Shown: one piece after another, positions 54,088 to 58,632 of the stretch
How positions within the stretch are numbered: position 1 is the first letter of the stretch
Layout: every line of letters starts with the position of its first letter
NCBI RefSeq assembly: GCF_022869865.1
Contig: NZ_CP094984.1
Span: 3,038,001-3,102,000, forward strand
DNA: 64,000 bases
Direction: 5' to 3'
Origin: Arthrobacter zhangbolii
GTDB lineage: Bacteria > Actinomycetota > Actinomycetes > Actinomycetales > Micrococcaceae
Made by a program: the position numbers and the translations under genes
The notes under the pieces: model-generated
The model's database searches: none
What the model saw: only the letters and a program-made list of their open reading frames with translations
Told to the model about the DNA's origin: nothing

Positions 54088-54214
54088 GGCGTGCTCCTAC
54101 TCTCCGCACCGGCGAAGCTCCGCCGCAGGTACGGGTGGATGGCTTTAGCACCTTAATCGTTGCACCCGGGCTCCGGTTGCACAGCCCCTGCGCGGCCCCG
54201 GTACCGTGAGGGGC

Positions 54215-54736
54215 ATGAAGAATCCGCTGCTTTCCCTTGCCCTTGCCGCTGTGTCTGCTGCAGGTACGCTCAGCCGGCCCGCCGACTGGTCCCCGTCCCT
54301 GCGCCGCCTTTACATCCTGGCACCGGGCGCAGCCATCGGCGCCATCAGCGTTGTGGCAGTGCAGAAGGGCACCCGCAAGGGCAGGGAACTGGCGGCCGCC
54401 TCAACGGTTGACCTGGTTACCCCGTTCACGGCCGCGGGTGAGGACGGCGCTGCGGGTGAGGCAACCGCGCCTTCCTATCTGCGTGCAGCCGGTTCCGCGC
54501 CGCGAACCCCGGCCATCGCACTGGCCGGCATGGCTGCGCTCGTGGGGGTCACCGTCAGCGGCGTTTTGGCACTGACCCTGGCACTGGATGAACAGGTTGA
54601 GAAATGGTTGGTCCGGCGCGGGGCGGCCCGTCCCCGGTGGGTGATGGCGGCGGCCGCCGCCGCCTCTTCCCTGCTTCTGGACTATGCCTTGGACGGGGCA
54701 ACGGACTCCGGGGACTCCGGGAAGTCCAAGGGCTGA
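54215..54736 (+). CDS. Conserved hypothetical membrane protein
   Basis: A 173-aa protein with about three hydrophobic segments (near 33-50, 100-125 and 140-158) and a polar Ala/Gly-rich middle. I recognise no family. The ATG at 54215 with GAGGGG directly ahead is preferred over a GTG three codons earlier. It stands alone, 33 bp before the convergent 34-aa gene. Confidence 0.6.
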   Translation: MKNPLLSLALAAVSAAGTLSRPADWSPSLRRLYILAPGAAIGAISVVAVQKGTRKGRELAAASTVDLVTPFTAAGEDGAAGEATAPSYLRAAGSAPRTPAIALAGMAALVGVTVSGVLALTLALDEQVEKWLVRRGAARPRWVMAAAAAASSLLLDYALDGATDSGDSGKSKG

Positions 54737-56276: not shown

Positions 56277-56606
56277 ACGGACTCCCTTGTCAGGCTGCGT
56301 CGTGCTCAGACTGTGTGTAGGAGTCAGGATGCGCCCTGAAGAACGCCGTGTCCCGGAATGACACGCGTTTTGCCGTATCGCAGGAAAACATACCGTGCAA
56401 CCTACTCACCGGTAACTAATTTCCCAAAACGCTTGCTTTGTTACCGCTGGGTAGCTTAGATGTAACAGACATCACACTCACCCGGGTCGGTTTCGTCATC
56501 TGCGGAAACGGACCGGACACCATGCATTCGCGAAGGCTGCGCCCACCGGCGTGCTGCACGCAGCTCAGTCAGTCTCGACCCGTATGAAGCAGAAAAAGGA
56601 TATTCA
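56277..56606. other. Divergent intergenic region before the heptad-repeat gene
   Basis: 330 bp with no gene seen. It contains inverted repeats GGTAAC (56411) / GTTACC (56440) and TGTTAC (56439-56444) / GTAACA (56462-56467) around a possible TTGCTT...TAGATG promoter for the repeat protein gene. The ribosome binding site AAAGGA sits six bases before the ATG. Confidence 0.45.
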
Positions 56607-58556
56607 ATGACGAGTTCCACGTCCGGGCGCGCATCATCCCGCCCGCACACACTTTTAACCGCCCTTTTGGCGTTGTTCCTGATCCTCCTGCTGGCCTTCT
56701 TTGTGCTGTTTACCGGCAAGGTGGCCGACGGCGCGGTGCAGCTGAGCGATGGTGCTGAGCGTGCCTCCACCGGTGCAGGGGACCTAAAGGAAGGCGCGGC
56801 CAAGGCCAAGGACGGTGCAGACAAGGTCGCTGCCGGCTCCAAGAAGGTCGACGACGGCGCCAACACCCTGGCCAACGGCATCTCCTCCGCCAAGGCCGGC
56901 GTGACCACACTGAAGGAAGGCGCCACCACGCTCGATGAGGGTGCACTGAAGCTCCTCACCGGTGCCGAGGCTGCCAACACCGGCGCCAACAAGCTTGCTG
57001 CCGGTGCCACCACTGCCAACAGCGGCGCCGGCCAGCTGGTCGTGGGCGCCAACAGCGCATCCGAGGGCGCCAACCAGCTCGCCAACGGCGCTACCACCGC
57101 CAACAACGGTGCGAAGGAGCTGCAGGCCGGTGCGAACAGTGCCGCTGACGGTGCGGGCAAACTGGCCGCCGGTGCCACTGCGGCAAACACCGGTGTCAAG
57201 GAACTCAAGACCGGCGCCAGCTCGGCCGCATCCGGCGCCAAGCAGCTGGCTGAGGGCGCTAAGTCGGCGAAGGACGGGTCGACCCAGGTGGCTGGCGGGG
57301 CCAACGAGCTTTACAAAAAGATGGAGCCTCTCTACGAGAAGGCACCCGCCCTCGCAGGGGGCGCGCAGCAGGTTGCAGACGGGATTGCAAAGGCGGCACC
57401 GGGAGCTGCCGCCGTCAACGGTGGAGTGCTGCAGATTGACGCCGGCATCAACACGGTTCAGGAAGGCCAGTCCGACACGGTGGCCAATCAGATCAAGGCT
57501 GACCTCGTCCCCTACGGCCCGAACGGCGAGTCCATGGGCGCCGCCGAACTCGAAGCCGCTGCAGACCGCATTCAGCTCCTGCCGGAAGCTTTCGGAGGCG
57601 GAAAGGAACCGGCCGATCGCCTGCGCCTGGCGGCAGCGAAACTTGAAGGCCTCGAGCGTCTGGTTGCCACCATCGATCTTGGCCTTCAGGGCAACGGAAC
57701 CCCCCAGCAGCCGGGCCTCAAATACGGTGCCGCCGCAGTCTCCGACGGCTTGGCCCAGCTCAACGATCCTGCCGCTGCGCCAGCACTTGCTGCGGGAGCC
57801 GGCCAGGCCGCGGAAGGTATCGAACAGCTTTACGCAGGAGCAGGCCGGCTCTCCGCCGGCGCGACGGAACTCGATAAGGGTCTGGAAGTTCTGAAGCAGG
57901 GTGCTGATGCCCTTGCTGAGGGCAACGGCAAGCTCGCCGCCGGCGCAGGCACCCTCGCCACCGGCCTCGGCGCCCTGGAGAAGGGTTCGAAGGACCTCGT
58001 TGCAGGCAACGGCAAGCTCGCCGCCGGTGCAGGCAGCCTCGCCACCGGCCTCGGCACCCTGGAAAACGGTGCGTACACGCTGGCCGACGGCAACGGGAAG
58101 ATCGCCGCCGGCGCAGGCTCCCTGGCCACTGGGCTGAGCACGCTGGAGACCGGCGCTTACACGCTGGCCGACGGCAACTACAAGATCTACGATGGCACCA
58201 TCAGCCTGGCTGACGGCACCGGCCGCCTCTCCACCGGCACCGAGTCCCTGGACGAGGGCGTCACCAAGCTCGACGACGGCGGCAAGACCCTGACCGCAGG
58301 CACCAAGGACCTGAAGAAGGGTGCAGCGGACCTGGCTGACGGCAATGCCAAGCTCGCCGAAGGCAGCGAGACGCTGGCCAACGGCAACGGGGACATCGCC
58401 GACGGCGCCGACACCATGCGGGCCAGCACCACGGCCCTGACTCCGGGCGAGATCCTCACCTCCCCGAAGATCCTCGCCGTGCTGATCCCGCTGCTGCTGC
58501 TGCTGGTTCCGATCGGTATGCTGGTCGCCGGTACCCGCCGCAACGCACAGCACTAG
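56607..58556 (+). CDS. Heptad-repeat membrane protein tethered at both ends (YhgE/Pip-like)
   Basis: A 649-aa protein with one transmembrane helix near each end (about 15-37 and 623-643) and a long outside region between. About 60 heptads of the form G-x-x-x-L-x-x (GAxxLAxGAxxLxxG) occupy residues 38-233 and 380-610, split by a non-repeat segment (about 234-380) containing DLVPYGPNGESMGAAELEAAADRIQLLPEA. The heptads resemble those of YhgE/Pip proteins, but the multi-helix ABC-2-type membrane domain of that family is missing. A long helical or coiled rod anchored at both ends is the simplest picture; its partner and function are unknown. Residues in the C-terminal repeat block come from an 84-bp DNA tandem repeat. 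Confidence 0.85.
   Translation: MTSSTSGRASSRPHTLLTALLALFLILLLAFFVLFTGKVADGAVQLSDGAERASTGAGDLKEGAAKAKDGADKVAAGSKKVDDGANTLANGISSAKAGVTTLKEGATTLDEGALKLLTGAEAANTGANKLAAGATTANSGAGQLVVGANSASEGANQLANGATTANNGAKELQAGANSAADGAGKLAAGATAANTGVKELKTGASSAASGAKQLAEGAKSAKDGSTQVAGGANELYKKMEPLYEKAPALAGGAQQVADGIAKAAPGAAAVNGGVLQIDAGINTVQEGQSDTVANQIKADLVPYGPNGESMGAAELEAAADRIQLLPEAFGGGKEPADRLRLAAAKLEGLERLVATIDLGLQGNGTPQQPGLKYGAAAVSDGLAQLNDPAAAPALAAGAGQAAEGIEQLYAGAGRLSAGATELDKGLEVLKQGADALAEGNGKLAAGAGTLATGLGALEKGSKDLVAGNGKLAAGAGSLATGLGTLENGAYTLADGNGKIAAGAGSLATGLSTLETGAYTLADGNYKIYDGTISLADGTGRLSTGTESLDEGVTKLDDGGKTLTAGTKDLKKGAADLADGNAKLAEGSETLANGNGDIADGADTMRASTTALTPGEILTSPKILAVLIPLLLLLVPIGMLVAGTRRNAQH
57921..58172 (+). 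repeat. 84-bp tandem repeat in the heptad-repeat gene
   Basis: Three units start at 57921, 58005 and 58089, with a diverged fourth at 58173. Each encodes 28 residues, four heptads (GNGKLAAGAGSLATGLGTLE + 8 more). The high DNA identity between units implies recent duplication, so copy number may vary among strains. Confidence 0.9.
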
Positions 58557-58594
58557 CGTTTCGGAGCACCACCGCATCACCTCGCACCACTAAA

Positions 58595-58632
58595 GGAAGG
58601 GCAGGAACCGCAGCCGCGGTTCCTGCCCTTCC
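58595..58632. terminator. Bidirectional intrinsic terminator
   Basis: A perfect 16-bp stem (GGAAGGGCAGGAACCG and its complement) with a six-base loop sits between the heptad-repeat gene and the convergent IclR gene. The plus-strand arm has TAAA before it and no long T-run after. Confidence 0.75.

Follow-up and report, generated by a model that had tools for sequence, protein, structure and literature searches.

A two-helix heptad-repeat protein of Arthrobacter zhangbolii and other Micrococcaceae, a probable surface hairpin stalk with arms of matched length

The gene and its product

The window, the whole 64,000-nucleotide stretch of Arthrobacter zhangbolii DNA analysed here, contains a gene for a 649-amino-acid protein that consists largely of heptad repeats and has one putative membrane helix at each end. 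The gene is identified by its open reading frame, its match to the repeat model TIGR03057 and its syntenic orthologues across the genus, and its start codon is supported by the conservation of MTSS..RPH and of the preceding stretch in the orthologues. In the following list, the arms and the tip are named after the model proposed below.

56594-56599, + strand: AAAAGG, a ribosome-binding-like sequence 5' of the ATG (sequence reading), which precedes MTSS in the orthologues too
56607-58556, + strand: gene for the putative two-helix heptad stalk, 649 aa
56607-56651, + strand: short and conserved N-terminal tail, predicted to be cytosolic, with two basic and no acidic residues
56652-56708, + strand: membrane helix 1, residues 16-34 (hydropathy 3.15; helical in the AlphaFold model)
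56730-57296, + strand: outgoing arm, residues 42-230, 27 heptads
57465-57794, + strand: non-repeat tip of type A, residues 287-396
57795-58403, + strand: returning arm, residues 397-599, 29 heptads
58470-58526, + strand: membrane helix 2, residues 622-640, with a TALTPGE motif before it and TRR after it
58595-58632, no strand assigned: perfect 17-bp hairpin between the convergent stalk and IclR genes, likely a terminator (-37.7 kcal/mol, z -9.3)

The protein contains 61 heptads of the G-x6-G type, 27 of them in residues 42-230, five degenerate ones in residues 252-286 and 29 in residues 397-599; the first heptad position is Gly, the second mostly Ala and the fifth Leu or Ala. This count, together with the helices found by hydropathy, bears out the original prediction of about 60 G-x-x-x-L heptads between two terminal membrane helices. 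The non-repeat region that it placed at residues 234-380 also exists, but the strictly non-repeat part covers approximately residues 287-396 and is preceded by a degenerate part (residues 231-286). TIGR03057 (xxxLxxG_by_4) matches the protein in 16 stretches with an E-value of 1.9e-52 and 173 bits, against a cut-off of 18.6, and is the sole model above cut-off in the NCBIfam search, while the Pfam search of the protein returned no model above cut-off. Long frames on the opposite strand of the gene (56784-58580, - strand) were regarded as a side effect of the GC-rich repeats.

Genomic context and distribution

The neighbours of the gene encode ADH, MFS, IclR, RibD-like and thioesterase proteins. 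At the 23 orthologous loci read (loci are denoted by L and genomes by G), a divergent MFS gene adjoins the stalk gene except at L053, and a RibD-like gene lies close to it except at L063. The gene appears to be monocistronic and transcriptionally isolated. The hairpin at 58595-58632 has a short T tract (TTCCCC) and resembles a terminator shared by the stalk and IclR genes; the promoter scan found no promoter. Elsewhere in the window, a 176-aa protein without a Pfam match is encoded at 54206-54736 and is syntenic in part of the genus.

Of the 29 Arthrobacter genomes searched with a C-terminal query, 28 contain the gene. The sole genome without it, G024, has a six-helix YhgE-like gene at positions 6192-8441 of L075. 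The two-helix form is present in at least 14 other genera of the Micrococcaceae, as 35 of the 38 loci read outside the genus and within the family encode intact two-helix proteins from 14 further genera, numbers that set a minimum rather than a frequency because the loci were picked by an N-terminal query. Outside the family, the majority of heptad proteins sampled from the phylum resemble the six-helix YhgE type. Two-helix forms are nevertheless seen in a distant actinomycetote family, f29, whose long heptad proteins (L150, L155, L156, L159 and L170) have few end helices and no YhgE-like helix bundle and may be an independent case. In genome G013, which is 94% complete, the orthologue at L061 (6036-8786, - strand) is without an in-frame first membrane helix, with TGA and TAG upstream, and is also short by one residue in a heptad of the C-terminal arm; it is either a pseudogene or the product of assembly errors. 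No relatives were found among phage records and plasmid records. In other genera, the stalk gene lies among different neighbours, and the neighbour search across genera found no conserved partner gene; five genera, none of them Arthrobacter, shared only background synteny around a glutamyl-tRNA synthetase-like gene.

Relation to YhgE/Pip and to secretion proteins

The YhgE/Pip proteins (TIGR03061/TIGR03062), such as Pip of Lactococcus and PIP of E. faecalis, resemble the stalk in their TIGR03057 heptads and in an extracellular domain flanked by two membrane helices, and E. faecalis PIP also has a variable centre with conserved ends (PMC4999554). In contrast, the stalk has neither the N-terminal nor the C-terminal domain of YhgE and no ABC-2 part, and the final helix of the chain serves as its second anchor. 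The N-terminal YhgE model TIGR03061 matches neither the window protein nor four two-helix relatives, while the YhgE of the same genome, used as a control, matches at 2.5e-43. Likewise, TIGR03062 and the ABC-2 C-terminal membrane domain have no match in the window protein, which possesses a single C-terminal helix, while the control matches at 9.9e-63. The original prediction that the protein is like the repeat part of YhgE/Pip and lacks the ABC-2-type domain is supported by these matches to TIGR03057 and not to the YhgE and ABC2_membrane models. The control is encoded on the same chromosome as a separate and complete six-helix YhgE of 721 aa (L069), which matches both YhgE domains and ABC2_membrane_3. 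This protein, together with the retention of the two-helix form across the genus, excludes a truncated YhgE, one of the findings by which the prediction was to be refuted.

The YueB/EsaA proteins of type VIIb secretion, of which YueB is the receptor of phage SPP1, also have a large wall-spanning extracellular domain after a single N-terminal helix (PMC9863714), but YueB has five C-terminal helices rather than one and sits in a secretion locus. The EsaA N-terminal model TIGR03929 has no match in the window protein and a weak match in YhgE proteins only, and no T7SSb or other secretion genes are found among the neighbours of the window gene. The suggestion that the protein is an export partner is unsupported: the gene stands alone, a strong hairpin follows it, and no partner gene is conserved beside it. 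More generally, the protein could be an accessory subunit of an exporter or secretion system whose transporter partner is encoded separately, like a split YhgE or EsaA, given that its TIGR03057 repeat is common to YhgE, that its two helices are like TM1 and TM2 of YhgE and that the YhgE-like gene of an order-level relative (L067) adjoins a gene for a 12-helix membrane protein. Such a role is unlikely for an apparently monocistronic gene that has ordinary neighbours (MFS, IclR, RibD-like and thioesterase) and different ones in other genera, and whose product is without the N-terminal models of both YhgE and EsaA.

Symmetry of the two arms

The arms were delimited by the largest non-heptad gap, and an earlier phase-based definition was dropped as too brittle. 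In 24 Arthrobacter orthologues, in which the protein ranges from 502 to 959 aa and the ectodomain from 411 to 868 residues, the centre of the non-repeat gap lies at 0.449-0.546 of the ectodomain (mean 0.503, sd 0.028); the 35 homologues of the 14 other genera have a mean of 0.460 (sd 0.036). A rod-like chain that exits a membrane and returns to it must turn midway, which is where the gap is found. The heptad counts of the two arms are correlated among the Arthrobacter orthologues with a raw r of 0.985 and, as phylogenetic independent contrasts on a tree from five flanking proteins, with an r of 0.916 and a slope of 0.87 (permutation p about 5e-5; none of 20000 permutations equalled the observed value). 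Equal arms that change together, as expected of an antiparallel coiled-coil hairpin, are thus found, with L133 (see below), L130 and L140 as exceptions, the latter two having off-centre gaps. As read from the sequences, the matched arms show an equal distance from membrane to tip on both sides and, alone, are no proof of pairing within one chain.

The differences in length between relatives are mostly paired as well. One such pair in the window protein and the repeat units that face each other in its two arms are located as follows.

57096-57263, + strand: 56 aa of the outgoing arm (residues 164-219), missing in L051, mirror partner of residues 424-479
57876-58043, + strand: 56 aa of the returning arm (residues 424-479), missing in L051
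56985-57236, + strand: repeat units of 28 residues in the outgoing arm (residues 127-210), opposite the array of the C-terminal arm; lag-84 DNA identity 0.58-0.67
57921-58187, + strand: 84-bp tandem array of 3.2 copies, full units with 70-82% DNA identity

Between the window protein and L051, 56 residues in one arm are matched by 56 in the other, and the mirror of residues 164-219 (423-478) is one residue off the observed 424-479. Compared with L066 (7/7), the heptad at residues 112-118 is missing along with residues 527-533, three residues off the mirror position, and compared with L045 the indels are 28/28 and 30 residues off. Among the relatives, the indels of the two arms (with the offset in residues from the mirror position, where given) are 84/84 for L045 and L048 (2), 42/42 for L044 and L065 (-1), 35/35 for L057 and L058 (5), 35/35 for L050 and L052, 42/42 for L115 and L116 (-17), 21/21 for L121 and L128 (-15), 14/14 for L120 and L125, 70/70 for L111 and L117 (7) and 30/28 for L139 and L142. 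The paired indels thus span 7 to 84 residues and usually lie near mirrored positions, with a median mirror distance of 9 residues, indel placement within the repeats being ambiguous by one unit; the pairs are partly non-independent phylogenetically, and the contrasts are the formal test. The exception is L124 against L133, in which 84 residues in one arm face none in the other, and the unmatched loss in L133, a draft assembly, is possibly a collapsed repeat. These comparisons suggest that length evolves by whole heptads and equally in both arms. With the limited search terms used, the literature yielded no publication on such matched indels.

The matched indels also bear on the proposal that the gene is a decayed YhgE that lost its transporter domain and whose functionless repeats expand by slippage. 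Although its repeats resemble those of YhgE and expand readily, as in the L046 array, we consider this extremely improbable: the gene is syntenic and equal-armed with conserved membrane ends in 28 of the 29 Arthrobacter genomes as well as in 14 additional genera, the intact YhgE is encoded separately, and unconstrained slippage would alter single arms, which the matched indels contradict.

For constrained length of coiled-coil arms, the closest precedent is that of SMC proteins, whose arm length is under evolutionary constraint (PMC5344682). Like the proposed stalk, SMC/MukB/Rad50 proteins fold back into a hairpin, with two helical arms that run antiparallel and need to be of equal length; unlike them, the stalk has no ATPase head, is membrane-anchored and would be extracellular by its inferred topology. 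The SMC model scores 16 bits against the window protein, with a cut-off of 567.

The 84-bp units of the returning arm are real. Tandem Repeats Finder places three of them at 57921-58172 (82% matches), but their pairwise DNA identities are 81, 82 and 70%, so that the terms near-identical and recent expansion, both used in the original prediction, are overstated for the window genome. The 28-residue units of the outgoing arm (58-67% DNA identity) were absent from that account. A truly recent expansion occurs in another Arthrobacter species, where the gene at positions 6007-8103 of L046 contains DNA-identical 84-bp units from approximately residue 474. Two orthologues with 87% identity have equal length and align gap-free (710/710), and two others, identical at 544 of 545 positions, are both 545 aa long, which indicates that length is not fast-switching at that scale.

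Predicted fold

Structure prediction, which had been named as the means to tell a rod from a solenoid, favours a rod together with the periodicity of the repeats. The AlphaFold model of the window protein is essentially all helix but weak (mean pLDDT 54, pTM 0.35), as is that of a 545-aa Arthrobacter homologue (mean pLDDT 59, pTM 0.46), in which the arm blocks reach a pLDDT of 73-87 and helix breaks at residues 106-110 and 431-440 lie near mirror positions. The hydrophobic power of the heptads in the window protein is 59.9 at the coiled-coil harmonic versus 14.5 at the beta harmonic. The ectodomain is predicted to be helical, with arms that may pair with each other. With Foldseek, both models yielded TM-scores of approximately 0.1-0.3 and rmsd values mostly above 20 Å, i.e., generic long helices only; the first-ranked entry, the Umb1 umbrella toxin 8w20, is no convincing fold match. 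Matches to SMC, exonuclease VII and DASH are far below cut-offs or partial.

A stalk with a beta-solenoid or beta-roll fold, as in the YadA head, with 14-residue turns and both ends anchored, was also considered, since phmmer matches the protein to the YadA head 1p9h (E 3.1e-5), Pfam LbR_Ice_bind matches weakly and below cut-off, and YadA has in common with the stalk a Gly at each seventh residue. We regard this fold as very unlikely and reject the match as one that follows the shared Gly spacing, which is outweighed by two models that are nearly all helix and by a coiled-coil harmonic that exceeds the beta harmonic in the window protein and in 52 of 61 proteins. Moreover, single-heptad paired indels suit a helix better than 14-residue turns, and a designed antiparallel coiled coil appears in the same phmmer match list. 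The trimeric adhesins of the YadA type share the seven-residue Gly spacing with the stalk but differ from it in having a beta-roll instead of a predicted helix and a barrel anchor instead of a single C-terminal hydrophobic helix.

Evolution of the tip and the distal half

The proximal arms are 89-97% identical between close species whose tips differ. Two tip types, A and B, are found, and their distribution departs from the species tree. For instance, the proximal arms of L050 are 97 and 89% identical to those of L048, while the bit score of its tip is 38 with L048 and 169 with L054. The dS of the distal half exceeds that of the proximal arms in two of the four pairs tested (window protein and L045; L049 and L048), is flat in L057-L058 and is mixed in L115-L116. 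These patterns suggest, without proving, that the tip can be exchanged along with both distal arms, in which case both arms would change at once.

A model of the stalk

Based on these results, we propose that helix 1 would anchor the chain in the cell membrane, from which the outgoing heptad arm would extend outward as a long helix. The chain may turn back at the non-repeat tip, and the returning heptad arm would run beside the outgoing one, back to the same membrane, which helix 2 would enter. Together, the arms would form an antiparallel coiled-coil rod with Leu in one core position and Gly/Ala in the other. The distal half, made up of the tip and both distal arms, looks as if it was swapped as one cassette in some lineages, on conserved proximal arms. 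Arthrobacter is not known to possess an outer membrane, and the symmetry of the arms places both helices in the same membrane; the outward location of the arms and tip is what we infer. An alpha-helix rises 1.49 Å per residue, and at this value half of the ectodomain measures approximately 42 nm in the window protein and 29-65 nm in all relatives, enough for a Gram-positive wall, so that the tip would be at or beyond the peptidoglycan. The original prediction of an envelope-spanning tether is to be revised to a hairpin stalk with both ends in one membrane.

The anatomy of a hairpin stalk is very probable, and a free-standing hairpin stalk at the cell surface is probably the best explanation overall. 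The extracellular domain of YueB has the length needed to cross the wall (PMC9863714), and the phage tropism of E. faecalis is set by the variable centre of PIP between its conserved ends (PMC4999554); by comparison with both, the window protein may be a wall-spanning stalk with a variable tip. We tentatively suggest, as the most likely of the roles considered, that it presents a variable tip on the surface of the wall, much as a wall-spanning YueB/Pip fibre would if it were freed of its transporter, with phages as the likely source of selection on the tip; by analogy this role is plausible but short of probable. Alternatively, the protein may be a structural tether or ruler that sets or senses the spacing between membrane and wall through its length, the tip variation being drift. 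The co-ordinated lengths of the two arms, never below about 29 nm, and the near-universal presence of the gene in the genus are consistent with a ruler, which is nevertheless rather improbable given a twofold length range within one genus, odd for a fixed ruler, the outright replacement of tips between close species and the finding of no peptidoglycan-binding domain in the window protein by Pfam and NCBIfam searches. Returning to the display of a variable tip, the Micrococcaceae might possess modular stalks in which length-matched cassettes of tip and distal arms are swapped between species, driven by phages or other tip binders; the breakpoints would lie in the conserved proximal arms, and each swap would preserve the equality of the arms. 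We hold this extension to be doubtful.

TIGR03057 heptads occur in phage-entry proteins of Gram-positive cells, usually within a transporter-like protein. The free-standing two-helix form, conserved across a family of soil bacteria, lets the stalk be studied alone. Equal and mirrored indels provide a sequence-only readout of a hairpin and its length that can be used where structure predictors do poorly, and they predict the pairs of facing residues as well as the tips on which phage host range might depend.
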